Assembly: GCA_900319005.1 (NCBI GenBank)
Contig: ONMV01000001.1
Coordinates: forward strand, 186,001 to 250,000
DNA length: 64,000 nucleotides
Direction of reading: 5' to 3'
Source of the DNA: an uncultured Bacteroidales bacterium
Lineage (GTDB): Bacteria > Bacteroidota > Bacteroidia > Bacteroidales > Paludibacteraceae
The position numbers were made by a program, and so were the translations under genes. The notes beneath the pieces are model-generated. The model saw only the letters and a list, made by a program, of their open reading frames with translations, had not been told where the DNA came from and did not search any database. Shown here piece after piece: positions 1-60,930 of this stretch (the first letter of the stretch is position 1; each line of letters starts with the position of its first letter).

Positions 1-1308
1 ATTGGCGATCCAGAAGAATGTCGTATATCCCACAGCCATCTCTAAAGCGCCCGCTACAAATCCCGGAATCATCATGCTCAATGCCATGAATGCCGTGCAG
101 ATCGCGTAATGGGCGGTCTTGTATTTACCCTCCGAGAAATACATCATATACAGCATATACGCGGTGAAACCGAAACCATAACCGAACTGCTCGAAGCTGA
201 CGGCTGTTCCGATTAGCCAAAGTGACTCCGGTTGAGCCATACTCAGGTAGCAATACACAAAGCTCGGCAGTGTCAAAGCAGCTGCCATCAGCCATATAGA
301 ACGCTTCAATCCGCGACGAGAGATGTAAATACCACCTAAAATGCCGCCTATCAGTAGGAAAATTACGCCTATCGTGCCGTATAGCAAACCAACGGTATCG
401 GTGCTAAGACCTAAACCGCCGCCTATAACCTGGCCGTCACGCATGAACGCCTCTTTGGCATCCACTAAGAATGGCTGACTCAACTTAACCAAAAATCCTT
501 CGCTTAGACGGTAAAGCAGCATGAAAGCGATTGCTAAACCCACGCCGGGCTTGGTGAAGAATGTTGCAAAAGCCTCGCCTAACTCTTTCCAAACAGCTCT
601 TGTCTCTCGGCTCTCAGCTTTCGCTTCCCCTTCTCCTCCCCTTGTGGGGGAGGTCGGGAGGGGGTTATGATTCTCCACTTTCGGCAGCGCAAAACAATGG
701 AAAACTGTGACAAGCAACATAATAACGCTGGTCACACCTAATGTTACTTGCCATGACAGCGGTATATCTCCTGTCTTTTGCTCGATGTATCCTGCCGTAT
801 AAACCAACACGCCCTGCGAGAATACAGCCGCAATGCGGTAAAACGTTGAGCGGATTCCCACAAAAGCAGCCTGACTTTTACTGTCATGTGCTAACATGTA
901 ATAGCCATCTGCCGCAATGTCGTGTGTCGCAGATGCAAAAGCAGTGATAATGAAGAAGATAAGTGTCCATTGGAAGAGCCCCACTGAGGTCTCTTTGGCT
1001 GCCATCATCTCTGCCGAAGGATGAGGTAGTGTAATCGTCAGAAGGATGCACAAGGCTGTCATCAATGCCTGCATCGTGACAATCCACCATCTCTTCGTAC
1101 GCAGGACATCTACGAACGGACTCCATAAACCCTTTAAAAACCAAGGGAAATAGAGCAGGGTGGTAAAGAATGCCAATTGGTCATTGGGTACACCCATTTT
1201 AGCAAACAGCATCACGGAGATGCTGTTTACTAAGAAATAGGGTATTCCTTCTGTGAAGTATAGGGTAGGAACCCATACCCACGGTGTTATGGAATTTTCA
1301 ATTTTCAA
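1..1308 (-). CDS. AmpG-like MFS permease, 3' end outside window
   Basis: Inner-membrane major facilitator of the AmpG type, which in the family imports anhydro-muropeptides for cell-wall recycling; substrate not proven here. The N-terminus reads TPWVWVPTLYFTEGIPYF, the family signature, followed by successive hydrophobic helices; 436 codons are visible and the frame is open at base 1. No ATG is in frame. The frame opens after TGA at 1312-1314 inside an AATTGAAAATT-type repeat, so TTG at 1306-1308 is the best start. The central loop between helices 6 and 7 carries an odd segment, NPLPTSPTRGGEGEAKAE, encoded by a C-rich hairpin repeat (about 626-667). It lies 45 bp downstream of the PpiD-like gene, probably in one operon with it. 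Confidence 0.8.
   Translation of the reverse strand, partial: MKIENSITPWVWVPTLYFTEGIPYFLVNSISVMLFAKMGVPNDQLAFFTTLLYFPWFLKGLWSPFVDVLRTKRWWIVTMQALMTALCILLTITLPHPSAEMMAAKETSVGLFQWTLIFFIITAFASATHDIAADGYYMLAHDSKSQAAFVGIRSTFYRIAAVFSQGVLVYTAGYIEQKTGDIPLSWQVTLGVTSVIMLLVTVFHCFALPKVENHNPLPTSPTRGGEGEAKAESRETRAVWKELGEAFATFFTKPGVGLAIAFMLLYRLSEGFLVKLSQPFLVDAKEAFMRDGQVIGGGLGLSTDTVGLLYGTIGVIFLLIGGILGGIYISRRGLKRSIWLMAAALTLPSFVYCYLSMAQPESLWLIGTAVSFEQFGYGFGFTAYMLYMMYFSEGKYKTAHYAICTAFMALSMMIPGFVAGALEMAVGYTTFFWIAN
626..667. repeat. C/G-rich hairpin repeat inside the AmpG-like gene
   Basis: CCTCCCC (635-641) pairs with GGGGAGG (647-653) around TTGTG, flanked by further C-rich and G-rich runs. On the coding strand it reads as Pro/Thr/Gly/Glu-rich residues in the central cytoplasmic loop. 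Its composition differs from the rest of the gene, and it keeps the frame open. Confidence 0.6.
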
Positions 1309-1327
1309 TTCTCAATTCTCAATTCAC
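1291..1327. repeat. AATTGAAAATT-type intergenic repeat
   Basis: A short tandem array of TTTTCAATT and TCTCAATT units between the PpiD-like and AmpG-like genes. Similar arrays occur at 3375-3410 and 59011-59036. The array spans the start region of the AmpG-like gene and leaves it with no ATG. Confidence 0.7.
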
Positions 1328-1353
1328 CTTATATTATATCGCGCGCGCACGCA

Positions 1354-3354
1354 TTATTGGAAGTTGGCGCGGTTGTCGGTTACCTCTGCTTTCTCCTCAA
1401 CCAGCTGCATTGCTTGGTAAGGCAGATAAGCGAAGCGGCTTGCCAACTGTGCTTTCTCGCTTTCTACGTTGAACTCCTCTGCGCTGTTGTTAGCCGTTCC
1501 GGTCTTAACAACAAACACACCCATGTTGCCCTGAATAGGCTCGCTCAACGTGTTCTCGCCTTGTGCAATCGTCTTGCCGATCACTGCCGGCTCCATGCCT
1601 GCATTTCCGAAACGGCTGTCTGCCAGACTAACGCGCTCTACGCTTTGTACGCGTTGACCCATGATCTGAGCTGCTGCCTCCAGGCTCTCTGCGCCCTTCA
1701 GTTGTTTCTTGATATACTCAGCCTTGGCATTGTTCGTTGCCTCGTAGGTCAACTCTGCGCGTACAGCGTCCAATGAACGGTACTCACCGTCGTTCACTTC
1801 CGTCAAGGCTGCTACGATGAACTGATTGCCGCACTCGAAGACGTCACTCACTGCGCCCTCTTTGGCATCAAACGCCCAGCGAACGATGCTACGGCTGCCT
1901 TTCAACTGACCTACTTTATCGGTAGTTGCGGTCAGGTTATACTCCGGTACAACCGTCATGCCTGCCTCTTGAGCTGCGCTCTCCAGAGCCTCGGCATTGT
2001 TATTGTTTACGATGAACTGCTTTGCGTTGTTGTAGATGATGGAGTAGGTCTTGCTCGACGGAGTTACCTCACGTGCTAAGATAGCCAACTTCACTTTCGG
2101 AGTAGCTTTGCCGATCTCCATGATCTCGTAGGTCTGCTCACCCATGCCTTGTGCTACGGTGAACTTGTCGCCGCGTTTGCCTGCAAAGGCCGGCTCAGCG
2201 ATGTTCTTCGGCAGATCTGCTGCCTTGAACCAACCTAACTCCTGATCCTCGCCGCCTTCTACGATAGCTTTTAACTCAACCGAGTCCGGCAGAGAATAAC
2301 CTGCTTGCATGATACGAGCCATCGCATAAGTGTTGTTCTCAAACAGAATCTCTGTGCAGTCTCCTGTTTTGGCGTCTTTGTTGAATGCGAACTCCTTGAA
2401 CTGAGCCGGAACGGTCTCCTCCGAGTAGTCGCGACCGTCGTACATAACGTCCGAATTGGTGTTTACTACCAGACTTACGTCCTCTGTTGTCTGGAACTCC
2501 TCTTTGAGGTTGTTCATCAGTGTCTCTGCGGCTTTGAAGTCTGCCTCGTTCGGCACGATGTCAAATGCGATATACTTGATTGCGCGGTTCGGAGTCTGTT
2601 TGTATTGCTCCTTGTGCTGCTTGTAAAGCTTTTTCAGGTCGCGGTCGCTTACGCTTACCAAACTGTCTGCTACCGTGAAATACGGCTGCATAACGTACTC
2701 TGCGCTCACACCGTTCTTGCGGCTGTTGAATGCGTACTCGGCATCCAGCGAGTTGGCCTTCAGCATATGTTGCAGAAGGGTTGTGTATTTCTCCTGCATG
2801 TAGCTGATTCGTACGGCTTTCTCCCAGTACAACCAATAGGTCTTTGCCTGTTTGAGGTTTGCGTTCTGCTCAGCGTCTTCGCCTTCCTGATTGATTGCCT
2901 GCAGCAAACTGATTACTGCGTCGCGGCTGAACTGACCGTCTTCGCCTGCAAATGCACGGCGTGCACGGATGATCTGGTGAACGTTCTCTCCAATGCACAG
3001 CTCGCTCAACTCATCGGCGGTTATATCCATGCCGATTTTCTCTGCCTGAGCGCGAAGTGTGTAATCCATCATCAGCATGTTCCATACCTGATTACGGATC
3101 TGGGCGTGAGTGTCCTCGTCAAAATCCGAACGACCGCTCTCAATCTTGTAAACTTCTGTTAACTGTTCCTTGGCGGCTTCGTACTCCGTATAGTGAACCT
3201 TCTGACCCTCTATTACGCCTACGTTCTCGCGGCTACGGTTGAAGAAACTACTACCGGAGTTCAAAAAGTCTCCGAGGATAAATGCCAGCATGGCCAAACC
3301 CACAATCGCAATCAGCAGGGCGCCATGATTTCTAATTTTTTGTAAACTTGCCAT
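1354..3354 (-). CDS. PpiD/SurA-like periplasmic peptidylprolyl isomerase
   Basis: Membrane-anchored periplasmic folding chaperone. The 666-residue protein has a short basic N-terminus, one transmembrane helix (about residues 12-31, ending FILGDFLN), a SurA_N-like helical region (about 35-165), and a parvulin-like segment near residues 350-430 with the ELGWFKAADLP motif typical of PPIC domains. Length and order match Bacteroidota PpiD-like proteins, which help outer-membrane proteins fold. The start at 3354 is followed directly by the cytoplasmic tail and anchor. The lipoprotein gene at 3394-3885 lies 39 bp upstream on the same strand, and the gap is almost entirely AATTGAAAATT-type repeat, so the two and the AmpG-like gene probably share the promoter at 3935-3966. 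Confidence 0.85.
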   Translation of the reverse strand: MASLQKIRNHGALLIAIVGLAMLAFILGDFLNSGSSFFNRSRENVGVIEGQKVHYTEYEAAKEQLTEVYKIESGRSDFDEDTHAQIRNQVWNMLMMDYTLRAQAEKIGMDITADELSELCIGENVHQIIRARRAFAGEDGQFSRDAVISLLQAINQEGEDAEQNANLKQAKTYWLYWEKAVRISYMQEKYTTLLQHMLKANSLDAEYAFNSRKNGVSAEYVMQPYFTVADSLVSVSDRDLKKLYKQHKEQYKQTPNRAIKYIAFDIVPNEADFKAAETLMNNLKEEFQTTEDVSLVVNTNSDVMYDGRDYSEETVPAQFKEFAFNKDAKTGDCTEILFENNTYAMARIMQAGYSLPDSVELKAIVEGGEDQELGWFKAADLPKNIAEPAFAGKRGDKFTVAQGMGEQTYEIMEIGKATPKVKLAILAREVTPSSKTYSIIYNNAKQFIVNNNNAEALESAAQEAGMTVVPEYNLTATTDKVGQLKGSRSIVRWAFDAKEGAVSDVFECGNQFIVAALTEVNDGEYRSLDAVRAELTYEATNNAKAEYIKKQLKGAESLEAAAQIMGQRVQSVERVSLADSRFGNAGMEPAVIGKTIAQGENTLSEPIQGNMGVFVVKTGTANNSAEEFNVESEKAQLASRFAYLPYQAMQLVEEKAEVTDNRANFQ

Positions 3355-3374
3355 TTTTATTTATTATTTTTTTA

Positions 3375-3410
3375 AATTTTCAATTATCAATTTTCAATTT
3401 TCAATTCTCA
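3375..3410. repeat. AATTGAAAATT-type repeat supplying a stop codon
   Basis: Tandem TTTTCAATT/ATCAATT units. The lipoprotein frame runs into the array and ends there (residues RIEN then TGA), so the last codons and the stop of that gene come from repeat sequence. Confidence 0.65.
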
Positions 3411-3885
3411 CAATATAGCTGTCCGTCAGCTCTACAATCTTCTTGCCGTTGTTGTTATACAAGGTCAACCGGCCTTGTACCGTTACGTTGGTTCCTACTG
3501 CGGGAATCTCCGACGGATCATGGAAAGGCTTGTTGTTTATGTTGTTCGTGAGGTAAGCTTCAATCGTTTGCTTGCCGCCGTCCGACATATAGAAACTGAT
3601 ACTCGAGTATTTGCCTGAAGTGATATCTTCCGCTTTGGTTACCATCTCTGTAATCTTACCGCTGATTTTGTATGCATAGGCGGATTTCTCGTCCTCCTTC
3701 TGGGTTAATCCTATCGCATATGCTGAATCCACACTGACTACGATGCCGTTTGTGTCCGGTATCCAGGTCGGTATATCCGGGTAATTGTAACTGTTATCTC
3801 CCGGGGAATTGATGTACGGGCTCTCGTTACAACTGCTCAGCAGAATAGCAATAAACGCGGCTGCGATAAAAAAGTATTTTTTCAT
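3394..3885 (-). CDS. lipoprotein, possible OB-fold
   Basis: A 163-residue exported lipoprotein: signal peptide with lipobox LSSC (residues 16-19), then a Ser/Asn/Pro-rich linker and a compact beta-rich domain ending VQGRLTLYNNNGKKIVEL. The strand pattern (YAYKISGKITEM ... VTVQGRLTLYNNN) resembles OB-fold domains of Bacteroidota lipoproteins, but I cannot name a family. It is the first gene of a minus-strand unit with the PpiD-like and AmpG-like genes. Its last four codons and stop lie in an AATTGAAAATT-type repeat, so the original C-terminus may have been altered. Confidence 0.75.
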   Translation of the reverse strand: MKKYFFIAAAFIAILLSSCNESPYINSPGDNSYNYPDIPTWIPDTNGIVVSVDSAYAIGLTQKEDEKSAYAYKISGKITEMVTKAEDITSGKYSSISFYMSDGGKQTIEAYLTNNINNKPFHDPSEIPAVGTNVTVQGRLTLYNNNGKKIVELTDSYIVRIEN

Positions 3886-4002: not shown

Positions 4003-4033
4003 TTGCGTATATCAGAAAATTGTTGTAACTTTG
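4003..4033 (+). promoter_or_regulatory. promoter of the infC operon
   Basis: TTGC (4003-4006) and TAACTTTG (4026-4033) are 19 bp apart. The spacer GCGTATATCAGAAAATTG is shared with the toxin-antitoxin promoter at 33765 and with an orphan copy at 32371. Transcription would begin a few bases after 4033. Confidence 0.8.
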
Positions 4034-5051: not shown

Positions 5052-5445
5052 ATGCCAAGATCAGTAAATCACGTTGCTTCGCGCAACCGTCGTAAGAAGA
5101 TCATGTCGCTCACCCGTGGTAACTTTGGTGGTCGTGCTAATGTATGGACCGTAGCAAAGAACACATGGGAGTGCTAATGTATGGACCGTAGCAAAGAACA
5201 CATGGGAAAAAGGTTTGCAGTATGCTTACCGCGATCGTAAGAACAAAAAACGTACATTCCGCGCTCTCTGGATCCAGCGTATCAACGCTGCCGCTCGCCT
5301 CGAAGGTCTGAGCTACAGCCAGTTGATGGGTTGCCTCAAGAAAGCAGGTATCGTTATCAACCGCAAAGCGCTGGCTGACCTCGCTATGAACCAACCCGCT
5401 GCTTTCAAGGCAGTTGTTGATCAGGCGAAAAAAGCTTGCAAGTAA
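5052..5445 (+). pseudogene. rplT: 50S ribosomal protein L20, frameshifted by tandem duplication
   Basis: L20 is an early 23S rRNA-binding assembly protein. The frame starts [18 protein letters not shown] and stays in register to VAKNTWE, then a perfect 37-bp tandem duplication (5134-5170 and 5171-5207) shifts it and translation ends at TAA 5175-5177 (41 residues). The rest of L20, from [16 protein letters not shown] to VDQAKKACK, follows intact in another frame. Removing one copy restores a normal protein of about 118 residues. A hairpin terminator follows at 5495-5517. The same operon's rpmI is also damaged. Confidence 0.85.
5134..5207 (+). repeat. perfect 37-bp tandem duplication in rplT
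   Basis: Two identical 37-bp copies (5134-5170, 5171-5207) with no bases between them. 37 is not a multiple of three, so the reading frame of L20 is lost. Confidence 0.95.
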
Positions 5446-5455: not shown

Positions 5456-5475
5456 ATCCGCCAAACATGGCGGAT
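5456..5475. repeat. interspersed palindrome ATCCGCCA-n-TGGCGGAT
   Basis: ATCCGCCA (5456-5463) and TGGCGGAT (5468-5475) form an 8-bp perfect stem with a 4-base loop. A closely similar palindrome lies inside the S9 peptidase gene (58313-58332), and a weaker one follows rpsA (7521-7538). Confidence 0.7.
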
Positions 5476-10025: not shown

Positions 10026-10496
10026 ATGAAACACAATAGTTTTGTTTTTCTTATCTTTTGTTTGTTATGCATTTTGACATTTCAAGAAAGTTGCAACATG
10101 CCTAAAAGAATTGCAAATGAGCAAAAACCTCCAGTGAGTGTTAATGACAATTTAGAATGTGATATATTGAGAGACGATTCTATTGTCGTTTTTGCTGAGG
10201 GCCATAGTTACAAAACAGGTTATGAAGCATATAAAAAGGCCTTGCAATATGCCAAAATCAAAATTTTACATCACTTGGATATAAAAGGTAATATAGTTTT
10301 ACCGCCATTAAATGTCGTAAAATCAGAAACCTTAGAAGAAGTTGAAACAGGAAAAATAATATCTCAATTAATAGTGTCGGTCAACCGGAATGAAATATTA
10401 GAGCTAAATAAGAATAACGATTCCATAAAATGTATGGATCCCATCATTATTAAGGATAGTACCGTCATTATGATGTATGAATCCCATCATTATTAA
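10026..10496 (+). CDS. exported protein, C-terminus altered by duplication
   Basis: A 156-residue exported protein with a hydrophobic signal (residues 5-20) and a possible lipobox ending in Cys about residue 23 (FQESC). The mature part EGHSYKTGYEAYKKALQYAKIKI resembles the helical start of the LPP20-like neighbours. An imperfect 43-bp tandem duplication (10431-10514) shifts the frame and ends the protein at 10496. Skipping one copy would extend it with YELHSICTPLGIDTIIYIN and stop at TAG 10615-10617, probably the ancestral end. ATGs at 9999 and 10020 are in frame, but 10026 best fits the signal peptide. Confidence 0.6.
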   Translation: MKHNSFVFLIFCLLCILTFQESCNMPKRIANEQKPPVSVNDNLECDILRDDSIVVFAEGHSYKTGYEAYKKALQYAKIKILHHLDIKGNIVLPPLNVVKSETLEEVETGKIISQLIVSVNRNEILELNKNNDSIKCMDPIIIKDSTVIMMYESHHY

Positions 10497-10514
10497 GGAT
10501 AGTACAGTCATTAT
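10431..10514 (+). repeat. imperfect 43-bp tandem duplication
   Basis: Copies at 10431-10471 and 10474-10514 differ at two positions (G/A and C/A) and repeat with a 43-bp period. Because the copies have diverged, this one is unlikely to be an assembly artefact. Confidence 0.85.
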
Positions 10515-10687
10515 TATTATGTATGAGCTTCATTCCATATGTACTCCTTTAGGAATAGACACTATTATATATATAAATAAAAATGGCGGGAATACCAAAA
10601 GCATAAATCACATATAGATTCAATCTAAACGGAAGCAACCGAAACGCCGTTAGAATAGGTAGTAGGGAAATTAATTCAAAACCGATG

Positions 10688-22635: not shown

Positions 22636-22803
22636 ATGTACAACAGAGTATTTTAACCGGAGTTTATCACGGAGTTGAAGCCGAATGAGGTATTTGCCTT
22701 CGGCTGTAATTTGCAAGGTATGCACTCAGGAGAAGCCGCACGGAGCTATGGATGTGGAGAATATCATCCTGCCTGAAACGTTTTTCAGTAATTGCTTAAA
22801 TTA
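22636..22803 (+). pseudogene. remnant of a conserved FxFGxNxxGxHxGxAAR-type gene
   Basis: Reading from ATG 22636 gives MYNRVF, an in-frame TAA, then PEFITELKPNEVFAFG and CNLQGMHSGEAAR. This resembles the start of a conserved Bacteroidota family typified by ITELKxNExFVFGSNLQGMHGGGAAR. Another frame soon after gives MDVENIILPETFF, like a C-terminus. The middle, well over 100 codons, is missing. The internal stop and deletion make it a dead fragment. Confidence 0.55.
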
Positions 22804-22809
22804 TATCCT

Positions 22810-24528
22810 ATGAAACAAGAAACATTTAAAAAGTTAGTTGCCCTTTCTGCTGTTGGTATGACAGCATATACCGTTCATTGTCTCTTACAGCTTATTCCTG
22901 CCGTGCGGGAATTGACGAACCGCTTATTGCCTTCCGTGACCGTTTGGGACGATGCGTATTTCGGTACATGGTTCGGGTTGCTGATGACGGTGGTTATCAT
23001 GACCATTGTGGTCATGCTCAAGCGAGGCAAACAGGATCCGGCTATGCCTAATAAGCCATTCCGGCGCATGACTTATATAACGGCTATCATCGCTGTATTC
23101 GCTGTTGTTATAGGGTGCTATGCGACGGATATATCCATCTATTACACGCCTGATTTCTACGTCCCAATAGTCATCCGTATCCCGCTTATGTTATGTGCTA
23201 CCGTGTGGCTTTGGATGATGAGTTGTCAAGACGGAATCGGGCGCATTTCCAAAGCACTACGCATAGTCGCAATCATCGGTATTGTCGGGCTCAGTGTCCC
23301 TATATCGCGGATGATTATATCTGCTATTTATTATGTCTTTAACGGCGAAGTGATTATATACCGTTCGTGGGCGGTTTCCTCATGGGCGAAAATAACTATT
23401 CCGGCATTCTTGTTGGTGTGGTACAGTATCGAGTTATGGTGGCAAACAAATAAACAATATATGACTATGGAAGAGAAAAACAAACATTTTTGGAAGAAGA
23501 TCATGATCGTAGCACTTTGTGTGTTGGCATTAGGATCTGTAACTACAGCCGTCTTTTGGGCAAGCGAATGGTATGCACATCGCCATCGGGTTATTTATTG
23601 GGAAACGCCAACTCGATATATCTCTAAGCATATCCAGTTGGTATATGGGTATCATGGTAATATATCTTTCGAGCGCCTCAAAGATGCTCGTACCGGTGAA
23701 TTTACGACGCCGGAGTTGGATCATGTGTTCATAAATGAATATAACTCAGAGGACAGTCTGGTTGTGTTTCGGTCGTTTGACCACAAGCGTGGATATATCA
23801 ATATGAATACCGGCAAGATCGTTATCCCTGCCCAATTCAACCGTGCTTGGAACTTCTACGAAGGGCTTGCGGCGGTGTTCGTAGATGGCTACGTATGGTT
23901 TATCAATGAGAACGGAGAAATGGCTTTTAAAGAAGTATTTCCTATTGTCTATGATGATGACTATAACAGTATCGCTTTTCGGTTTCATCATGGTCTTTGC
24001 GTCATGAGGACGATGGAGGGCAAATGGGGTATGATCAATACAAAAGGAGAATGGATCGTAGAGCCTATTTATACCGTCCTTTCTGCACCACAATTAGGAT
24101 CACGAATTGTCGGTGATGGTACCCATTACGGATTGTTGGACTTAGAGGGGAACATCATTCTGCCGGTGGAGTACGATGATATTCATCTCTCCAATAGGGA
24201 GGGGTGCCTGATGTTGGTCAAAGACGGACGGGCTAAACTGGTAAATCGCGAACTGGAGACGGTGGAGCCCTTCGTGTTTGATAGAACATTCCTGCTTTCT
24301 TACGTCGATGGCTATCGTGATTCGGAAGAGGAGGCAACGTCTGTTCATCCTAAGTATTTTGGCTATCAAATAGGAGAGTATTGTGGCGTGCTGGACGATC
24401 AGGGACACGTGATTATCCCTGCTAAATACGAATGGGTCCGTATCGCAGGAGAACATCTCTTTGAGGTGAGTATCTCATCCTACAACGAGAGAATTCTATT
24501 CAATCACAAAGGTGAAAGAGTCAAGTGA
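22810..24528 (+). CDS. membrane protein with C-terminal WG repeats
   Basis: A 572-residue protein. The N-terminal half (about 1-250) has around six hydrophobic segments. The C-terminal half contains WG-type beta repeats: GYINMNTGKIVIPAQFNRAW, WGMINTKGEWIVEPIYTVL, YGLLDLEGNIILPVEYDDI and CGVLDDQGHVIIPAKYEW. WG repeats are short hairpins of unknown function, often periplasmic or surface located. The start at 22810 is preferred over an ATG six codons upstream. The stop codon overlaps the first base pair of a GATGTACGA repeat, and a hairpin terminator follows. Confidence 0.75.
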   Translation: MKQETFKKLVALSAVGMTAYTVHCLLQLIPAVRELTNRLLPSVTVWDDAYFGTWFGLLMTVVIMTIVVMLKRGKQDPAMPNKPFRRMTYITAIIAVFAVVIGCYATDISIYYTPDFYVPIVIRIPLMLCATVWLWMMSCQDGIGRISKALRIVAIIGIVGLSVPISRMIISAIYYVFNGEVIIYRSWAVSSWAKITIPAFLLVWYSIELWWQTNKQYMTMEEKNKHFWKKIMIVALCVLALGSVTTAVFWASEWYAHRHRVIYWETPTRYISKHIQLVYGYHGNISFERLKDARTGEFTTPELDHVFINEYNSEDSLVVFRSFDHKRGYINMNTGKIVIPAQFNRAWNFYEGLAAVFVDGYVWFINENGEMAFKEVFPIVYDDDYNSIAFRFHHGLCVMRTMEGKWGMINTKGEWIVEPIYTVLSAPQLGSRIVGDGTHYGLLDLEGNIILPVEYDDIHLSNREGCLMLVKDGRAKLVNRELETVEPFVFDRTFLLSYVDGYRDSEEEATSVHPKYFGYQIGEYCGVLDDQGHVIIPAKYEWVRIAGEHLFEVSISSYNERILFNHKGERVK

Positions 24529-24560
24529 TGTACGAAGGAAGAATGTACGATGTACGAAGG
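24527..24560. repeat. GATGTACGAAGG repeat, intergenic copy
   Basis: A 34-bp unit built of GATGTACGA and GTACGAAGGAA steps. It matches 49965-49998, inside the M20 peptidase gene, at 32 of 34 positions. Its first two bases form part of the TGA of the WG-repeat gene. Confidence 0.8.
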
Positions 24561-24562
24561 AA

Positions 24563-24617
24563 GAAAAATCGCTCAAATCGGGCGATTTTTCTATTTATAT
24601 TTGCATATGTGCAAAAA
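24563..24617 (+). repeat. 55-bp duplicated terminator/-33 block, copy 1
   Basis: Identical over 55 bp to 47232-47286. It contains a terminator hairpin and TTTGCATATGTGCAAA, a perfect inverted repeat carrying a -33 box. Copy 1 lacks a -7 box after it. Confidence 0.9.
24564..24590. terminator. terminator after the WG-repeat gene
   Basis: AAAAATCGC (24564-24572) pairs with GCGATTTTT (24582-24590). The A/T tails make it usable in either direction. Confidence 0.85.
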
Positions 24618-46753: not shown

Positions 46754-46798
46754 CGAGTGAAAGAATGAAAGAATGAACGACTGAACGAATGAAAGAAT
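46754..46798 (+). repeat. 8-bp tandem repeat AGAATGAA
   Basis: Five to six units of (A/C)GAATGAA type occupy the gap between the giant gene and the 46810 gene. TGA occurs in every unit. Confidence 0.75.
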
Positions 46799-47231: not shown

Positions 47232-47286
47232 GAAAAATCGCTCAAATCGGGCGATTTTTCTATTTATATTTGCATATGTGCAAAAA
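47232..47286 (+). repeat. 55-bp duplicated terminator/-33 block, copy 2
   Basis: Identical to 24563-24617. Here a -7 box follows, so this copy is part of a complete promoter. Confidence 0.9.
47233..47259. terminator. terminator after the small anchored protein
   Basis: AAAAATCGC (47233-47241) pairs with GCGATTTTT (47251-47259). Confidence 0.85.
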
Positions 47287-49745: not shown

Positions 49746-51137
49746 ATGACGGCAAAAGCGTATATCGAAGCGCATAGGGCGCGGTTTATGGAGGAATGGG
49801 CGAGTCTCATTCGTATCCCAAGTGTGAGTTGTCAACCTGAGCACAAGGCGGACATGATGCGTTGTGCGGAGCGATGGAAAGAATTGCTGTTAGCCGCAGG
49901 ATGCCAGAAGGCAGAGGTGATGCCTTCTGCCGGCAATCCCTTCGTCTATGCGGAGTATAAGGCTGATGTACGAAGGAACGATGTACGATGTACGAAGGGT
50001 GTGCCGACGGTCCTGGTATATGCGCATTACGACGTGATGCCGGTGGAGCCTTTGGAGTTATGGCACTCCGATCCATGGGAGCCGCAGATACGTGACGGAC
50101 GGCTCTATGCGCGCGGCGCAGACGACGATAAAGGGCAGGCAATGATCCAAGCCAAAGCGTTTGAGTACATGGTACACGAGGGCTTGATGGCATGTAATGT
50201 GAAGTTCATCTTTGAGGGGGAAGAAGAGATCGGTTCTCCGAGTTTGGAAGCATTTCTGGAGGACCATAAAGAGTTGCTGAAAGCGGATATTATCTTGGTG
50301 AGCGACACCTCGATGATCGGCAAAGAGACCCCGTCACTGACGACCGGATTGCGGGGCTTGGCATATTGGCAGATTGAGGTGGACGGTCCGAACAGAGACT
50401 TGCATAGTGGTCATTTCGGCGGAGCGGTGAAGAACCCTGTGAATGCTCTGTGTGAGATGATTGCGAAAGTGGTGGACAGCGAGGGACGAATCACTATCCC
50501 GGGTTTCTACGACGATGTGCTGCCTATTCCGGATGAGGAGAGGAAGATGATTGCGCAGATTCCATTTGACGAAGATGCGTATAAGCGCGCTATTGACGTA
50601 GATGAAGTGTTTGGCGAAAAAGGATATAGTACGCTTGAACGTAATTCCTGTCGTCCGTCGTTTGATGTATGCGGCATATGGGGTGGTTATACGGGCGAAG
50701 GGAGCAAGACCGTTTTGCCGAGCAAGGCATTTGCGAAAGTGAGTTGTCGTCTGGTGGCGAACCAAGACCATGAGCAGATCTCTAAAGCTTTCATCGATTA
50801 TATCGAGTCGATTGCGCCGAAGGGTGTGCGCGTCAAGGTGACTCCTATGCACGGCGGTCAGGGTTATGTGTGCCCGATTGACATTCCAGCGTATAAGGCT
50901 GCGGAGAAAGGGTTTGAAGCGGCGTTCGGTAAACGTCCGTTGGCGGCAAGACGAGGGGGTAGTATTCCTATCATTGCGGCTTTTGAACAGATATTGGGTC
51001 GCAAAACCATCCTTATGGGTTTTGGATTGGAGCAAAATGCTATCCATTCGCCCAACGAGAGTATGGATATGGAGGTATGGGAGAAAGGCATTGTCGCTGT
51101 TAGCGAATTTTATAAGCAATTCGCTAACAGCATTTAA
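49746..51137 (+). CDS. M20-family dipeptidase
   Basis: A 463-residue cytoplasmic metallopeptidase: YAHYDVMPVEP (His, Asp metal ligands), GRLYARGADDDKGQ, EGEEEIGSP (Glu ligand and base) and the closing AIHSPNESMD. M20 dipeptidases cleave dipeptides and so could complement the VanX-like gene before it. An insertion near residues 73-84 (DVRRNDVRCTKG) between strands of the catalytic domain is encoded by a GATGTACGAAGG repeat and is absent in my recollection of homologues. The ATG at 49746 matches the N-terminal helix. Confidence 0.88.
   Translation: MTAKAYIEAHRARFMEEWASLIRIPSVSCQPEHKADMMRCAERWKELLLAAGCQKAEVMPSAGNPFVYAEYKADVRRNDVRCTKGVPTVLVYAHYDVMPVEPLELWHSDPWEPQIRDGRLYARGADDDKGQAMIQAKAFEYMVHEGLMACNVKFIFEGEEEIGSPSLEAFLEDHKELLKADIILVSDTSMIGKETPSLTTGLRGLAYWQIEVDGPNRDLHSGHFGGAVKNPVNALCEMIAKVVDSEGRITIPGFYDDVLPIPDEERKMIAQIPFDEDAYKRAIDVDEVFGEKGYSTLERNSCRPSFDVCGIWGGYTGEGSKTVLPSKAFAKVSCRLVANQDHEQISKAFIDYIESIAPKGVRVKVTPMHGGQGYVCPIDIPAYKAAEKGFEAAFGKRPLAARRGGSIPIIAAFEQILGRKTILMGFGLEQNAIHSPNESMDMEVWEKGIVAVSEFYKQFANSI
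49965..49998. repeat. GATGTACGAAGG repeat, coding copy
   Basis: Matches 24527-24560 at 32 of 34 positions. It inserts about 11 residues into the M20 peptidase without breaking the frame. Confidence 0.8.
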
Positions 51138-51163
51138 GATTTAAGATTGAAGATTTTAGATTT

Positions 51164-51976
51164 ATGAGAATCGCAATTATTGGAGCGGGGAGTGTGGGCA
51201 CCAATCTGCATCATGCTTTTGAATTGAAGGGTGTTCGAACCGAGCTCATCCATGCGCGCCCTTTGACCGCTGAGCACCCGGAGTTATTAGAGGATCCGAG
51301 AGTGTCGGACGAGGTCCTGAATAGTTTTGATGTGTATATCTACACAATTGCTGACCATGCGTTACGGGAGGTCGTGTCGAAAGTGAATGCCCCCAAGGCA
51401 TTGCATATGCATACCTCCGGTTCAATGCCGATTGAGGTCTTTGGAGTCGATAAGCCCCATGCAGGTATTATGTATTTCTTCCAGAGTTTCAGCCGCGAAA
51501 AACTGATTGATGACTGGAGTGGAATACCTTGTTTCTTAGAGGGTAGGAACATAGACGACATAGCGGCTATTTACTCGTTGGCGCAAACTCTGACGAGCCG
51601 GATCTACGAGGCTTCACAGCACGACAGAGAACGGCTGCATATCGCCGGTGTGTTTGCCAATAACTATTCGAACCTCATGTACTGCATTGCGGCACAAGTG
51701 TTGGCAGATACGCAGATTCCTTTCGAAGCACTTCTTCCGCTGATTGACCAAACGGCAGCGAAAGTACACTCCATCCGACCTGTAGATGCCCAAACGGGCC
51801 CGGCTCAACGAGGGGATGAGGTGGTGATGAAGAAGCATATGGAGATTCTGAAAGAATTAAAAATTAAAAATTACGAATTAGGAATGACGAATAATTCCGA
51901 TTCGTTTAGCGGGGAAGAATTGTGCAAAGTTTATCAAGAACTCGCAGCGTTAATCGTGAAAGCGCATACTCATTGA
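51164..51976 (+). CDS. Rossmann-like DUF2520 protein
   Basis: A 270-residue protein with an NAD(P)-binding N-terminus (RIAIIGAGSVGTNLHHAF), the conserved HMHTSGSMPIEVF and GIMYFFQSFSRE, and a helical C-terminal domain of DUF2520 type (HIAGVFANNYSNLMY). Family members resemble F420/NADP oxidoreductases or ketopantoate reductases; substrate unknown. Between residues about 230 and 245 lies an AT-rich insertion KELKIKNYELGMTNNSDS, encoded by an AATTAAAAATTACGAATTA-type repeat. The gene's last 71 bp overlap mutY on the other strand. Confidence 0.8.
   Translation: MRIAIIGAGSVGTNLHHAFELKGVRTELIHARPLTAEHPELLEDPRVSDEVLNSFDVYIYTIADHALREVVSKVNAPKALHMHTSGSMPIEVFGVDKPHAGIMYFFQSFSREKLIDDWSGIPCFLEGRNIDDIAAIYSLAQTLTSRIYEASQHDRERLHIAGVFANNYSNLMYCIAAQVLADTQIPFEALLPLIDQTAAKVHSIRPVDAQTGPAQRGDEVVMKKHMEILKELKIKNYELGMTNNSDSFSGEELCKVYQELAALIVKAHTH
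51855..51897. repeat. AATTAAAAATTACGAATTA-type repeat, coding copy
   Basis: AT-rich tandem of AATTAAAA, AATTACG and AATTAGG steps read through in frame as KIKNYELGMTNN. Related to the intergenic arrays at 1291, 3375 and 59011. Confidence 0.6.
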
Positions 51977-53613: not shown

Positions 53614-55512
53614 ATGAAAAGCGAATTGATTGTGGACGTACAGCCTCAAGAGATCGCAATTGCGCTAACGGAGGATGACCGCTTGCAGGAAGTGGCGCGT
53701 GAGAAACGTGACCAAGACAACTTCTCTGTGGGGAATATCTATTACGGTCGTGTCAAGAAAGTTATGCCTGCGCTTAATGCCGTCTTTGTGGATGTAGGTC
53801 ATGAGAAAGAAGCTTTTCTGCATTATTTGGATTTAGGTTCTCAGTTTCGTACGCTGCAAACGTATGTTACCAAAGCCGTTTCGGACAGACGTCATGTGCC
53901 ATTAATTACGAAGACACAACGTAAACCGGAGGTAGGCAAAGAGGGGCAGATCTCGGATGTTCTCAAGGTGGGCGACCCTATTTTAGTGCAGGTTTCCAAA
54001 GAGCCGATAAACACAAAGGGGCCTCGTCTGACCGCAGAGATTTCGATAGCAGGACGTAATATCGTCCTGATGCCTTTTGCCGACGGCGTTATGGTATCTC
54101 AGAAGATTAAACGCGAGGCGGAACGTCAACGTCTCAAACAACTGATGCTTTCCATCAAGCCTGCGGGTTTCGGAATCATCGTGCGTACTGTAGCAGAAGA
54201 CAAGCGAGTGGCTGAGTTGGACAATGAATTGCGATTACTGGTAGAGCGCTGGGAGCAGACTGTGAAAAGTCTCCAGCAGAAAGAACCCGTAAGTCTCGTG
54301 AGTGAAGAGATGGGACGGACGCTCGGTATTATCCGGGATGTGCTCAATCCTGATTTTACCTCTATTCAGATCAATGACAAAGACACCTATGATGATGTTC
54401 GTCATTATTTAGAGTTGATTGCTCCCGAGAGCGCAAAGATTGTCAAACTCTATCAAGGCACACAGCCTATCTTTGACCATTTCGACATCACCCGTCAGAT
54501 GAAAACGGGACTCGGTAGGACGGTCGGTTTTAAACATGGGGGATACCTCATTATTGATAGAACCGAAGCACTGTTCTCCATTGATGTCAATTCCGGCAGC
54601 AAGAAGATCTATGAGGACCAAGAGGAGAATGCGTTCCAATTCAACATGTTGGCGGCGGATGAGTTGGTTCACCAACTTCGTTTGCGCGATATTGGCGGTA
54701 TCATCATTGTGGATTTCATCGACATGGATGACAAAGGCCACCAGCAGGAGTTGTACGATTATGTACGCAAACTGATGGAACGCGACCGCGCTAAGCACAA
54801 TGTGCTTCCGCTCAGTAAGTTCGGCCTTATGCAAATCACGCGTCAGCGCGTTCGTCCGGCGGTAGAGGTTGAGGTGATGGAGACTTGTCCTACCTGTATG
54901 GGAAAGGGAAAAATCCAGCCGTCTATTCTCTTTACCGACCAGATAGCAGAGATGTGCGAACATATGCATGAGCAGTATGGACGGGGATTGAAGTTGCATC
55001 TGCACCCCTATGTCTATGCCTATGTCAGCCGCGGATGGTTATTCTCTCTCAAAGCCAAATGGCAACTTCAGTATGGTGTGAAAGTGGTGGAAAACCAATC
55101 ACTGGGCATGCTGGAGATGCGTTTCTTGGATGCAAAAGGTCAAATCGTGCAGCATAAGCATGAAGAGCCGAAGGAGGAGAAAAAAGATGATCCGAAACCG
55201 GAACCGAAGGAAGAACAACCCAAACAGGTGGAACAGCCTAAATCGGTTGAGAAACCCAAACAGGTAGAACAACCTAAACCGGTTGAGAAGCCCAAGGTAG
55301 AGCAACCAAAGCCGGTAGAGCTGCCGCAAGAAGAGGAGACTCCGAAGAAAAAGACAGCGCGGCGAAGCGCTAAGAAAGCGGCTAAACCTGCGCCTGTTGA
55401 ACCGGCAGAGAAATCTCCTGCAGAGACCAAAGCACCTACTGCGGTTAAGAAACGCGCGCGTAGAAAGAAAGCTGAAAATGCAGAAAGCAAACAAAAAACA
55501 GAGACCGCATAA
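53614..55512 (+). CDS. rng: ribonuclease G/E family protein
   Basis: A 632-residue endoribonuclease of the RNase E/G family, acting in rRNA processing and mRNA decay. An S1-like domain (about 38-125) is followed by the catalytic domain with the metal-binding aspartates in LFSIDVNSGSKK (about 325) and GGIIIVDFIDM (about 368), then the zinc-link cysteines TCPTCMGKGK. The C-terminal 110 residues are a Lys/Pro/Glu tail of repeating EQPKPVEKPK units and a basic end, typical of scaffolding tails. The last codons lie in the terminator stem at 55492-55526. Confidence 0.92.
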   Translation: MKSELIVDVQPQEIAIALTEDDRLQEVAREKRDQDNFSVGNIYYGRVKKVMPALNAVFVDVGHEKEAFLHYLDLGSQFRTLQTYVTKAVSDRRHVPLITKTQRKPEVGKEGQISDVLKVGDPILVQVSKEPINTKGPRLTAEISIAGRNIVLMPFADGVMVSQKIKREAERQRLKQLMLSIKPAGFGIIVRTVAEDKRVAELDNELRLLVERWEQTVKSLQQKEPVSLVSEEMGRTLGIIRDVLNPDFTSIQINDKDTYDDVRHYLELIAPESAKIVKLYQGTQPIFDHFDITRQMKTGLGRTVGFKHGGYLIIDRTEALFSIDVNSGSKKIYEDQEENAFQFNMLAADELVHQLRLRDIGGIIIVDFIDMDDKGHQQELYDYVRKLMERDRAKHNVLPLSKFGLMQITRQRVRPAVEVEVMETCPTCMGKGKIQPSILFTDQIAEMCEHMHEQYGRGLKLHLHPYVYAYVSRGWLFSLKAKWQLQYGVKVVENQSLGMLEMRFLDAKGQIVQHKHEEPKEEKKDDPKPEPKEEQPKQVEQPKSVEKPKQVEQPKPVEKPKVEQPKPVELPQEEETPKKKTARRSAKKAAKPAPVEPAEKSPAETKAPTAVKKRARRKKAENAESKQKTETA

Positions 55513-56810: not shown

Positions 56811-58982
56811 TTATCTTAACCAGCGGTCGAGCCAGTTGCGGAACTCGCGTTGCCAGAGGATGCCGTTCTGGGGTTTGAGGACCCAGTGGTTCTCGTCCGG
56901 GAAGATGAGGAGTTCGGCAGGTACGCCGCGCATCTTGGCGGCATCGAAGGCTGCCATGGCTTGGTTAGCAAGGATACGGTAGTCTTTCTCTCCATGGATG
57001 CAGAGAATAGGGGTGTCCCATTTGTCCACGAACCGATGCGGACTGTTAGCAAAGGTACGCTGTGCAATTTGGTTGTTTTTGTCCCAATACGCACCGCCCA
57101 TATCCCAGTTGGCGAACCATTTTTCCTCGGTTTCAAGGTATTGCATCTCCATGTTGAAGATACCATCGTGTGCGATGAACGCCTTAAAGCGTCCGTCGTG
57201 GTGACCTGCGATCCAATAGACACTGAAGCCACCAAAAGAAGCACCCACACAGCCCAGATGGTCTTTGTCCACATAAGGCTCTTTGCAGAACTCGTCAATA
57301 GCCGTGAAATAATCCTTCATACACTGACCACCATAGTCACCGGAGATCTCTTCGTTCCATGCTTTGCCGAATCCCGGCAGGCCGCGTCTGTTCGGAGCGA
57401 CGATGATATAATCGCCGGCAGACATCATCATAAAGTTCCAACGGAAAGACCAGAACTGCGAAACAGGACTTTGCGGACCACCTTCACAATAGAGGATCGT
57501 CGGGTATTTCTTAGACGGGTCGAAATGCGGCGGATAGATGATCCAAGTCAACATCTGCTTTCCGTCCGTCGTCTTCTGCCAACGAGGCTCTACGGTCGAA
57601 CGCTCGATTTGGTTATAAATATTGTCGTTCTCGCTCGTCAACTTATCCAACAACTGATTATAGGTGTCAAAAGGTTGGTCGTACCATACCTCCGTGTGAG
57701 CCATTTTCTCGCTATCCTTGTGTAACCATTCCGCTACATCGAGACGGTAAATCTCGTTTGCCTGACGCATGGAGTGACCCAAGACAAAAGCATAATGGTC
57801 GCTCACATCGCCTAAACCAAGGTCAAATTGACCGTCCGTCAGTTTGTTGACCTGTCCGTCTAAAGTCACACGGTAGAGTTGCACGGTAGCATGCCAACAG
57901 GCGGTGAAGAGGATGGATGAGTCGTTGTACCACGCGTATTCATCTACGTTGGTGTCCATCGTGCGGCTGAGGAAGCGTTTCTCGCCGGTCGTCAGGTTCA
58001 TCACCATCAACCGATTTTCGTCGCTCTCATAACCGTCTCGTTCCATCGACTGCCATGCGATCCACTTGCCGTCCGGAGAATACGACGGATTGGTGTCATA
58101 ACCTTTGTTGACCGCTGTGATGTTTTTCTCCTCGCGCGTGCGTACATTATATAAATAGATGTCGCTATTGGTTGAAACGGCATAATCCAAGCCCGTTTTC
58201 TTGCGGCAGGTATAGGCTATTTCCTCGTTGTTCGGGTTCCAAGCCAACTGCTCAATTCCGCCGAATGGTTTCATCGGGCTCTCAAAAGCCGTCCCCTCAA
58301 GGATGTTTTGACATCCGCCAAGTTTGGCGGATTTGATTCGCTCACCCTCACCGTAGTACTCAATCTGCAGGTCGCAAACGAAGGGTTGTGGAGCTGTCTC
58401 GGTCCACTCGTCCCAGTGCTTGTACATCAGGTCCTCATGCATATGCCCGGTAGCCAGAGGCAGATCCGGATATTTGTCTGCGGTTGACTGAACAGTCTTC
58501 ACTTGTTTGATAAGGATGATTTTATCGCGCATCGGAGAGAGCAGGAAGCCCTCAATGTCATTTACCATTGGGTCATTTGGCATGACCTCCACTTCCTCTT
58601 TGTCGCGACGAAGGTATAGTTTGCCTCCCTTGAGGTACGCGAGACATCCGCTGTTGCCGAACCATGCGGGCTCGTTACCCACGAACTCATCCACTACCTG
58701 CATATTTTCATACGGATTGCAAATCCGAATCCACGTCGTACTCCGGTTCTCCTCGACGGAATAATAACTCACTGTGTATGCGAGCAGACCTGTCTCGATA
58801 TCACTTTTTACACTACCGATGCGACCCATCGCCCATAATCCTTCCGGAGTCAGGCGACCGCCTTCGATCGTAATTTGAGGTTTGGTGATTGGCGTTTTGC
58901 CCTCCTCTGCCTTTTGGCAGCTTACGCCCATTAAAGCCACTACTGCCATGATAAAGATGCGTATTTGTTTCATTGTTTTCAT
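56811..58982 (-). CDS. S9 family peptidase, lipoprotein
   Basis: A 723-residue prolyl-oligopeptidase-type lipoprotein: signal peptide with lipobox GVSC (about 18-21), a beta-propeller region (about 40-480) with WD-like strand pairs, and a C-terminal alpha/beta-hydrolase with nucleophile GASFGGFS (Ser about 584), Asp in GEKDYR and His in ENHWVLK. Such enzymes (DPP-type) trim dipeptides in the periplasm of asaccharolytic Bacteroidales. A palindrome (58313-58332) in the propeller region encodes SAKLGG. An alternative start lies three codons downstream. Confidence 0.9.
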   Translation of the reverse strand: MKTMKQIRIFIMAVVALMGVSCQKAEEGKTPITKPQITIEGGRLTPEGLWAMGRIGSVKSDIETGLLAYTVSYYSVEENRSTTWIRICNPYENMQVVDEFVGNEPAWFGNSGCLAYLKGGKLYLRRDKEEVEVMPNDPMVNDIEGFLLSPMRDKIILIKQVKTVQSTADKYPDLPLATGHMHEDLMYKHWDEWTETAPQPFVCDLQIEYYGEGERIKSAKLGGCQNILEGTAFESPMKPFGGIEQLAWNPNNEEIAYTCRKKTGLDYAVSTNSDIYLYNVRTREEKNITAVNKGYDTNPSYSPDGKWIAWQSMERDGYESDENRLMVMNLTTGEKRFLSRTMDTNVDEYAWYNDSSILFTACWHATVQLYRVTLDGQVNKLTDGQFDLGLGDVSDHYAFVLGHSMRQANEIYRLDVAEWLHKDSEKMAHTEVWYDQPFDTYNQLLDKLTSENDNIYNQIERSTVEPRWQKTTDGKQMLTWIIYPPHFDPSKKYPTILYCEGGPQSPVSQFWSFRWNFMMMSAGDYIIVAPNRRGLPGFGKAWNEEISGDYGGQCMKDYFTAIDEFCKEPYVDKDHLGCVGASFGGFSVYWIAGHHDGRFKAFIAHDGIFNMEMQYLETEEKWFANWDMGGAYWDKNNQIAQRTFANSPHRFVDKWDTPILCIHGEKDYRILANQAMAAFDAAKMRGVPAELLIFPDENHWVLKPQNGILWQREFRNWLDRWLR
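58313..58332. repeat. interspersed palindrome inside the S9 peptidase gene
   Basis: ATCCGCCAA (58313-58321) and TTGGCGGAT (58324-58332) form a perfect 9-bp inverted repeat around two bases. Same motif as 5456-5475. Confidence 0.75.
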
Positions 58983-58993
58983 AAAAAATCGTG

Positions 58994-59001: not shown

Positions 59002-59010
59002 CTAAAAATA

Positions 59011-59036
59011 ATTGAAAATTGAAAATTTAAAAATGA
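59011..59036. repeat. AATTGAAAATT-type repeat between divergent promoters
   Basis: Tandem ATTGAAA units in the 109-bp divergent region between the S9 peptidase gene and korA. Confidence 0.6.
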
Positions 59037-59040
59037 AAAT

Positions 59041-59072
59041 TTTGTTTTTTTTAAAAAAAAGTAGTACCTTTG
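59041..59072 (+). promoter_or_regulatory. promoter of korAB
   Basis: TTTG (59041-59044) and TACCTTTG (59065-59072), 20 bp apart. Confidence 0.7.
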
Positions 59073-59091
59073 CAGAAAATTTCTCTATATC

Positions 59092-60930
59092 ATGAAAAAT
59101 ATTGTAGTTCGTTTTTGTGGCGATTCGGGAGACGGCATGCAGCTCACGGGTAATATGTTTGCCCAACTTGGCGCCGAGATGGGGCATGAGATCTCCACGC
59201 TTCCGGATTTTCCAGCCGAGATTAGAGCACCGCAAGGTACGATTGGTGGTGTCAGTGGTTTTCAGGTTCAGTTGGGCAGCGGCGTCTATACGCCTGGTGA
59301 CAAAGCAGACGTGATTGTGGCGATGAATGCCGCGGCTTTGAAAGTGAGCGCGATTAACAAGCATTACCATGATCATGCGATCATCATTGTCGATACGGAT
59401 GCGTTGAGCGCAAAGGATCTGGAGAAAGCGCAGTATAAAACGGATAACCCGTTTACGGAGCTGGGTATTCCGGAGACCGTTAAGATTGTTCCTGTAGCCC
59501 TGACGACACTGACCAAAGAGGCGCTCAAGGAATCGGAGATGGATAATAAGGCGGTTCTCAAATGTCGTAATATGTTCGCGTTGGGACTGATCTATTGGCT
59601 TTTTGACGAGCCGATGGACAAAGCGATTCGTCTCTTGGAAGATAAGTTCAAGAAGAAACCTGCGTTGGTAGCTCCGAATACGAAAGTGATGGTGGATGGT
59701 TATAACTATGGTCAGAACCTTGCCATTAGTCAATTAATAATTGATAATGAACAATTAACATCTCGTGAAGCGGGTAGTCAATTAATAATTAATAATGAAC
59801 AATTAACATCTCGCTTCACTTCCATCGCGGGTAACAAAGCGACAGCTTGGGGTTTGATTGCCGCGGCTCAGAAGGCAGGCAAACATCTTTTCCTAGGCTC
59901 TTATCCTATTACTCCCGCTACGGATATCCTGCATGAGTTGGCAGCGCGTAAGGACCAGAACGTGATGGCTATTCAGGCGGAAGACGAGATATCCGGTGTA
60001 TGTACGGCTATCGGGGCTGCTTTTGCGGGCGATCTGGCTTGTACGACTACCAGCGGTCCCGGTCTGAGTCTCAAATCCGAGGCTATCGGTTTGGCTGTCA
60101 TGGCGGAATTGCCGCTGGTGGTTGTGGATGTTCAGCGTGGTGGACCGAGCACGGGTCTGCCTACCAAGACAGAGCAGACCGACCTCCTGCAAGCTCTCTA
60201 CGGGCGTAACGGAGAGTGTCCGGCAGTAGTCCTTGCGGCTTCAAGCAGTGCCAATTGTTTTGATTTTGCCTACGAAGCATGTAAGATTGCTTTGGAGAAT
60301 ATGACCCCCGTTATTTTGTTGACCGATACTTATCTGGCGAACGGAACGGCATTATGGCGAATCCCCAAGTTGGCAGAGCTGCCGGATATCAAGCCGCAGA
60401 GCGTTCCCGAAGAACTGAAGGGACATTATAATCCTGCGCTGCGGGATGAGAGGGGTGTGCGTTATTGGGCGTTCCCCGGGATGGAAGGTTTTGAGCACCG
60501 CAACATCGGTTTGGAGCGTGATGCAGTTCGCGGTACAATCTCCACAAGCCCTGAGAACCACGAGCAGATGGTTCTTACCCGTAAGCACAAAATCGAGCAG
60601 ATAGCCAATTCGATTCCGGAGTTGCAGGTGCAAGGCAATGCTCATAGTGATCTCCTCTTGGTAGGATGGGGTAGTACGGAGGGTCACCTGCATGCCGCTG
60701 CCGATGAGCTGAATTGTGCTTTGGCGCAGTTCAATTATATCTCTCCGCTGCCGAAAAACACTCGCGAGGTGCTTAGTCAATATAAGCGAATTATCGTTTG
60801 TGAGTTGAATACGGGTCAGTTCGCGGCTTATCTTCGCAGCCAACTGCCGGGTATAGAAATCGAACAATTTAATGAAATTCAAGGACAGCCGTTTGCTGTA
60901 GAAAGGATCGTGAATTATGCAAGCAAGTGA
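59092..60930 (+). CDS. korA: 2-oxoglutarate:ferredoxin oxidoreductase, alpha subunit (gamma-alpha fusion)
   Basis: KorA with KorB oxidatively decarboxylates 2-oxoglutarate to succinyl-CoA, reducing ferredoxin. The 612-residue protein has an N-terminal gamma domain (about 1-200; RFCGDSGDGMQLTGN), a linker, and an alpha domain (about 245-612) with FLGSYPITPATDILHEL and GPGLSLKSEAIGLAVMAELP. The linker holds a 48-bp repeat, present twice (59728-59813), that encodes SQLIIDNEQLTSREAG. Typical linkers are shorter. It overlaps korB by 14 bp. Confidence 0.92.
   Translation: MKNIVVRFCGDSGDGMQLTGNMFAQLGAEMGHEISTLPDFPAEIRAPQGTIGGVSGFQVQLGSGVYTPGDKADVIVAMNAAALKVSAINKHYHDHAIIIVDTDALSAKDLEKAQYKTDNPFTELGIPETVKIVPVALTTLTKEALKESEMDNKAVLKCRNMFALGLIYWLFDEPMDKAIRLLEDKFKKKPALVAPNTKVMVDGYNYGQNLAISQLIIDNEQLTSREAGSQLIINNEQLTSRFTSIAGNKATAWGLIAAAQKAGKHLFLGSYPITPATDILHELAARKDQNVMAIQAEDEISGVCTAIGAAFAGDLACTTTSGPGLSLKSEAIGLAVMAELPLVVVDVQRGGPSTGLPTKTEQTDLLQALYGRNGECPAVVLAASSSANCFDFAYEACKIALENMTPVILLTDTYLANGTALWRIPKLAELPDIKPQSVPEELKGHYNPALRDERGVRYWAFPGMEGFEHRNIGLERDAVRGTISTSPENHEQMVLTRKHKIEQIANSIPELQVQGNAHSDLLLVGWGSTEGHLHAAADELNCALAQFNYISPLPKNTREVLSQYKRIIVCELNTGQFAAYLRSQLPGIEIEQFNEIQGQPFAVERIVNYASK
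59728..59813. repeat. tandem AATTAATAATT repeat inside korA
   Basis: Copies of 38 bp (59728-59765, 59776-59813) differ by one base and are spaced by 48 bp, a multiple of three. Adds about 28 residues in frame, including two IINNEQLTSR-type segments. Confidence 0.85.

Follow-up and report, generated by a model that had tools for sequence, protein, structure and literature searches.

Dispersed heptameric repeat arrays between and inside the genes of an uncultured Bacteroidales bacterium

We asked how short repeats come to lie, in frame, inside the housekeeping genes of an uncultured Bacteroidales bacterium. The question was raised by a 64,000-nt stretch of its DNA (positions 186001-250000 of contig C34 in the source assembly G000, here called the window), in which a sequence-only reading had pointed to repeat-like segments in five coding sequences. 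All five segments are present. They are a C-rich hairpin (NPLPTSPTRGGEGE) in frame in an AmpG-like permease (626-667, minus strand), a GATGTACGA array in frame in an M20-type peptidase (49964-49998, plus strand, read as ADVRRNDVRCTKG), an AATTAAA/AATTACG array in frame in a DUF2520 gene (51852-51897, plus strand, read as ELKIKNYELGMTNN), a ATCCGCCAAACTTGGCGGAT palindrome in an S9 peptidase (58313-58332, minus strand) and an AATTNNN heptad array in frame in korA (plus strand), where it stands twice: a first copy at 59727-59765 (QLIIDNEQLT) and a second one, 48 bp downstream and 97% identical, at 59775-59813 (QLIINNEQLT). The observation is confirmed and is larger than first reported. Heptameric arrays are in excess in this genome, belong to many dispersed families, lie in ∼9% of the sampled called genes, and differ in family between sister species at one and the same protein loop.

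The source assembly has 2,183,908 bases in 41 contigs and is 85% complete. Its closest KorA relatives in the named collection are Bacteroidales/Paludibacteraceae metagenome-assembled genomes, chiefly from the rumen and other gut sites, which points to a gut bacterium whose nearest relatives are mostly of rumen origin. To the window we added 40 further stretches of G000, giving a sample of 758,907 bases (0.759 Mb of the genome), and scanned it for direct repeats at periods 1-24; a fourth-order Markov sequence of the same 758,907 bases served as the control. The sample contained 99 arrays of period 7, 33 of period 11, 21 of period 8 and 19 of period 15, compared with no period-7 array in the control, whose total was one array, of period 1. 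A heptameric tandem unit is therefore in excess, as in heptameric simple sequence repeats. The units are numerous (AATTGAN, AATTAAA/AATTACG, AAATNTC, GGTGTAY, AAGAGNC, AAAGTTG and others); their names, like the family labels and the readings of the korA, M20 and AmpG loops below, were assigned by eye. Among the families that we followed up, the palindromic ones were the C-rich hairpin and the 20-nt palindrome, and we rejected the palindrome as the common theme of these repeats: the common theme is period 7.

How often do the arrays lie inside genes? A simple hexamer caller found 609 genes (655,671 coding bases) in the sample, and 57 of them carried an array of period 7, 8, 11, 14 or 15, whereas codon shuffling gave a mean of 0.5 genes and a maximum of 1 (20 shuffles). 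Thus the suggestion that dispersed families sit in frame within unrelated genes, which is also a hallmark of the Rickettsia palindromic elements, held over the whole sample. By period, the in-gene arrays numbered 45 (period 7), 4 (period 8), 3 (period 11), 1 (period 14) and 12 (period 15); period 15 is divisible by three, and some of its arrays are ordinary protein repeats. By bases, the density was higher outside genes, with arrays covering 4.8% of the non-coding compared with 0.36% of the coding bases. We scanned 30 of 59 array-bearing genes (59 rather than 57 because of a different counting rule) with NCBIfam. The hosts named were serS, gldG, murG, mnmA, rimO, miaB, mazG, ribD, prmC, queA, galK and ispH, together with a DegP-type protease, an RluA-type synthase, a CCA-adding enzyme (below the curated cut-off) and others, while 6 of the 30 matched no NCBIfam family at E 1e-15. 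The segments encoded by 61 in-gene arrays were more hydrophilic than genes overall (mean hydropathy -0.68 versus -0.22), and for the 55 arrays with a choice of open frame, the frame in use averaged -0.62 versus -0.07 for the mean of their open frames.

It had also been proposed that related copies of four of the families lie between genes. Copies elsewhere exist for the C-rich hairpin (9 matches), GATGTACGATGTACGAAGG (13), AATTAAAAATTACGAAT (13) and ATCCGCCAAACTTGGCGGAT (12), whereas the korA string, at up to 3 mismatches, occurs in korA only; the looser class AATTNNN to which it belongs does recur in the genome. In the 0.759-Mb sample, AATTAAAAATTACGAAT (17-mer, 1 mismatch) was found at 13 sites, 7 of them in genes, and GATGTACGATGTACGAAGG (2 mismatches) at 13 sites, 6 of them in 5 genes, in both orientations. 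The ATTTACCATTTGGTCATTTA pattern (20-mer, 2 mismatches) had 19 sites, 13 of which lie in 10 genes; all 13 in-gene copies are antisense to the pattern and 12 of the 13 use the NDQMV frame or a near variant of it. In another family 7 of 7 in-gene copies are KIKNYEL-like or KITN-like, but in-gene copies of GATGTACGA occur in both orientations. Non-periodic sequence is dispersed as well, as GATTGACGAGGTACGATTGA (3 mismatches) was found at 11 sites, 2 of them in genes. The ATCCGCCAAACTTGGCGGAT palindrome (up to 4 mismatches) had 12 sites, 6 in genes, of which 4 were exact and some are perhaps due to chance. The 9 hairpin matches, the weakest with an E of 0.74, come from the whole genome; 8 are in called genes and 1 is outside.

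We then compared the host proteins with their relatives, for KorA with 80 of them. The tree of korA DNA is a quick tree, built without the two variable loops that we found in the protein and leaving out L110, L111 and L117 (internal stops or partial). In the first loop the window has the doubled AATTNNN array, and other sequences have GAGAGTG, GGTTAGA, CGTCAGC, ACCAAGT, CAATCAC or CCTTCAT arrays or a C-rich hairpin. The second loop has an ancestral form (KVQGNA-SDTLLVGWGS-like) in distant and many sister species and departs from it in 32 of 78 sequences, in 23 of them by nameable repeat families. On the tree this amounts to at least 10 switches between empty and non-empty, in which gain and loss are not separable, and to at least 19 changes of state, which become 26 when the nine unnamed rows are counted. 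Close pairs differ too: L062 and L072, with korA DNA 96.1% identical, have one loop of ancestral length and one with an array, L085 and L086 (92.6%) have two different families, and L108 and L128 (89.5%) have an array and none. Across the KorA loci of these relatives, period-7 arrays numbered 54 in the 68 nearer ones (478,683 bases) and 1 in the 12 distant ones (87,087 bases). A predicted model of KorA alone (35 sequences, mean predicted local distance difference test score, pLDDT, 78) gives residues 213-240, the doubled array, a pLDDT below 50 and no secondary structure, and places the second loop between strands 513-515 and 521-526. As judged from this model, KorA being the sole protein modelled, the doubled array appears to lie in a linker or disordered stretch, and for this protein the proposed loop or linker position is borne out.

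The loops of the M20 peptidase and of AmpG appear, from the alignments, to turn over like those of KorA. Among 24 same-genus M20 sequences, the window included, 7 have heptad arrays in the loop, of other families than that of the window elsewhere, 2 have 15-nt repeats and 1 has a hairpin-like insert, while six sequences from other families have none. In AmpG the loop has heptads in 3 relatives, and the hairpin is present in the window and, among the aligned relatives, only in G021 (L193). The segments had been read as in-frame insertions. For korA, M20, DUF2520 and AmpG this stands, in that they sit where species of the same genus differ and where more distant genomes are shorter; for S9 it does not, as the nearer homologues align across the palindrome with no gap. 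The exact S9 20-mer is common to the window, L243 and L244, and is absent from L223, which is closer to the window; in seven sequences of the same genus (L236-L242) the stretch just ahead of the palindrome is ∼11 residues shorter, and an older insertion may lie there. The S9 gene has another repeat-like segment at 58560-58579, which encodes PNDPMVND and has 2 mismatches to the NDQMV family. At the DNA level we sought empty sites against G021, but the alignments were ∼60-91% identical, mostly 70-80%, and gave few clean intergenic sites, so we relied on the coding sites. Comparison with solved structures places the arrays of MurG and PrmC in variable stretches that have been rewritten with little net change in length. 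Arrays therefore often overwrite a variable loop.

What do the units themselves look like? Variation within arrays is concentrated by phase, both inside genes (sum of squares 247, null mean 201) and between them (423, null mean 310), and in either case 0 of 2000 simulations reached the observed value. In AATTGAN arrays, positions 3 and 4 are nearly invariant, position 5 is somewhat variable and position 2 has some T, giving ATTTGAN-like units. At the seventh position all four bases occur, both in the 10 arrays inside genes (T11 G11 C6 A12) and in the 32 arrays between genes (T22 G33 C23 A63), where A is favoured. With a period of 7, which three does not divide, successive units place the free base at each of the three codon positions, and coding selection therefore does not explain the pattern.

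The population extends over the genus. In the stretches of three same-genus genomes, an array was found in 10 of 163 genes (G002), 6 of 59 (G003) and 10 of 128 (G021). We searched for the NDQMV 15-mer family with a 21-mer, allowing 2 mismatches, and obtained 42 matches in G000, 12 in the same-genus G269 and 4 in G243; any match was found in 9 of 295 genomes of the order. The other six of these have single matches, no more than the reversed control gave (8 genomes with one match each). AATTGAN arrays (1 mismatch) gave 124 overlapping matches in G000 and 0 reversed. At least one match was present in 60 of 395 Bacteroidota genomes, among which several other genomes had reversed-control matches, up to 10. 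In G129, from another family, 220 kb that were partly chosen for their matches held 18 period-7 arrays, one of them in a called gene.

The window has further arrays beside those inside the five genes. An AATTGAN array stands at the 5' end of the AmpG-like gene (1293-1325, minus strand); by eye, the AmpG-like open reading frame (ORF) may start within it, the array possibly giving the start codon and first residues. A second AATTGAN array (3354-3410, unstranded) lies between two minus-strand genes and overlaps the end of the second (3394-3885), and a copy of the ATCCGCCA palindrome (ATCCGCCAAACATGGCGGAT) lies between called genes at 5456-5475 (C34:191456, unstranded). The remaining arrays are on the plus strand. 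A GATGTACGA array of family D5 (24526-24582) starts at the stop codon of ORF 22792-24528, and over its first 35 nt it has 94% identity to the M20-gene copy. A GTACCAAG/GATGTAC repeat (46636-46670), 69% identical to the D5 reference, lies near the 3' end of a 2934-codon ORF, at whose stop codon stands an array of 8-nt period (TGAAAGAA, 46752-46798). An ATTTAAG array (51132-51163) stands after the stop codon of the M20 gene and before the start codon of the DUF2520 gene, and an AATTGAA array (59010-59041) lies between the S9 gene and korA. Apart from these, the window has two identical copies of a 55-nt block (family D4; 24563-24617 and 47232-47286), in which a promoter-like stretch comes after a hairpin with a T run. 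A promoter-like sequence ending GTAACTTTGCA / GTACCTTTGCA, which we take to resemble the Bacteroidetes promoter, is repeated at 4025, 5602, 24798, 32489 and 53049, and longer tandem repeats are found at 5134-5207 (37 nt), 10430-10521 (43 nt) and 55217-55320 (36 nt). Elsewhere in the sample, an 11-nt GGGTGATTAGT array family has 7 matches, all outside called genes (sites at G000:C34:14202, 112924 and 157220, C35:78600, C28:19978 and C10:11035).

Heptameric repeats are an old observation (Mrazek 2007 via PMC4679880; PMC4692102), and we compared ours with known systems as described in the accessible parts of the reports. The GGGNATC repeats of Xanthomonas and Nostoc likewise have a 7-nt unit with free positions and are dispersed over the genome, often with four units per array and with many arrays near ORF ends, as here; unlike ours, they are G-rich, over-represented in non-coding DNA and under-represented on the coding strand of ORFs (PMC4692102). 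Here, in contrast, there are many families, mostly A+T-rich, and in-gene arrays in ∼9% of called genes. The TAACTGA direct repeats of Beggiatoaceae, Cyanobacteria and some Bacteroidetes also form dispersed heptamer arrays and are present in five Bacteroidetes including Paludibacter propionicigenes (two sets), but they have one exact unit and, in the main genome studied, lie mostly just upstream of start codons; one set of two is inside a gene, purC of Flexibacter litoralis (PMC4679880). The Rickettsia palindromic elements, to which the sequence-only reading had likened the segments, likewise form dispersed families and enter the genes of unrelated proteins in frame, whereas each is ∼150 bp long, palindromic and has a conserved peptide (PMC10969869). 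The period-7 arrays listed here are direct repeats, mostly shorter than 65 nt and of variable length, and most families are degenerate heptad arrays. As far as these partial sources go, the GGGNATC arrays are the nearest in form and the Rickettsia elements the nearest in effect; our arrays resemble the latter in effect and are not members of them. Porphyromonas gingivalis belongs to the same order as this genome. Its BrickBuilt element also contains a tandem repeat, there joined to a miniature inverted-repeat transposable element (MITE), but is a minisatellite within that MITE and is reported as strictly intergenic (PMC4596501, PMC10969869). A 2025 survey describes a high density of short tandem repeats in Bacteroidota, genome-wide and in genes (PMC12699852). 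As the sequence-only reading had surmised, our searches of an open-licence library for in-frame heptad arrays in Bacteroidales turned up no report, which does not prove absence.

How, then, might the arrays have arisen? We think it probable that they are dispersed heptameric repeats that are copied, expanded and filtered by selection, a large genus-wide population mostly of period 7, with a unit that is part-fixed and often has one free position. A unit would be copied ectopically or seeded locally, probably while a break or gap is being repaired, and the resulting array would lengthen and shorten in 7-nt steps. Selection would purge the copies that shift the frame, add a stop codon or hit a folded core, and the survivors would lie between genes or serve as protein loops and linkers; the C-rich hairpin and the ATCCGCCA palindrome, a smaller palindromic share, may move differently. 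Several observations weigh against this explanation. No copying machine was identified, and the comparisons are all between species. Across the whole genome, the korA string with up to 3 mismatches has two matches, both in korA. The most hydrophilic open frame was used in 22 of 55 arrays, where 16.9 were expected. In an orthologue check that covered a subset of relatives, 16 of 68 in-gene arrays could be aligned across to a relative, with a gap of at least 4 residues in at least one relative for 9 and none for 7; in some of the gapless cases the relative seemingly bears an array too. Finally, whole-array copying, which we probed by unit order, does not predict the very mixed order of variants inside AATTGAN arrays, and the AAA-to-ACG asymmetry is weak (8 versus 2). 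As whole-array copying alone would not give such an order, we favour copying of short seeds followed by 7-nt expansion and selection.

Plain replication slippage, as proposed for the heptanucleotide repeats of other prokaryotes, would have each array grow from its own local seed in 7-nt slips, with family likeness a matter of base composition. The AAAATGC unit of L108 could indeed, by eye, stem from the local AATGC of the ancestral loop, and the confinement of the korA string to korA agrees with this account. We nevertheless regard it as rather unlikely, since the same families, including the non-periodic GATTGACGAGGTACGATTGA (11 sites, up to 3 mismatches), appear at unrelated sites and, by eye, in several species, copies in part share non-periodic flanks, and variation is concentrated in few phases and not spread across all seven. 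Alternatively, an enzyme could move arrays and hairpins in trans, as with transposase-borne elements like those of Rickettsia, repetitive extragenic palindromic (REP) sequences or MITEs. Dispersal in frame would fit, as would the palindromic and dispersed hairpin and ATCCGCCA family, and G000 has two Y1 transposase matches above cut-off. One of these, a Y1/RAYT-like gene in L018, has CTCGGCAT palindromes just before it and inside its end (CTCGGCATAnATGCCGAG; G000:C34:122621-122638 and 123605-123622), but these differ from the palindromes described here, the scan reported none beside the second Y1 gene of G000, and most families are direct repeats of variable length. This origin therefore seems improbable, and we rejected a Y1 transposase as the mover of all families. 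It is more doubtful still that the arrays are functional sites kept by selection, for example as targets of a protein that binds RNA or DNA with a 7-nt footprint: several AATTGAN positions are nearly fixed with one free, and some arrays abut stop or start codons, but the same pattern is present in the 10 in-gene AATTGAN arrays, where a regulatory site is less expected, and families differ at the same place between sister species. We give as little credence to template-cycling DNA synthesis at breaks, in which each cycle would copy about six fixed bases, add one untemplated base and realign, with guide sequences shared by the genus, although it would yield period 7 and one free position in coding and non-coding DNA alike. 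A search of G000 gave no PF00078 (RVT_1) match, a weak negative in an assembly that is 85% complete; on this ground we set aside a reverse-transcriptase origin, and the enzyme of such a cycle would therefore be a DNA polymerase or primase-polymerase.

For this group of Bacteroidales, the arrays mean that gene annotation and family alignments are blurred. If it is true that they reshape stretches of about one protein in ten and swap family between species at 4-10% korA DNA divergence, the linkers of bacterial proteins would have in them a natural source of variation of unusual speed, and the system would allow the origin of heptameric repeats to be dated on gene trees.

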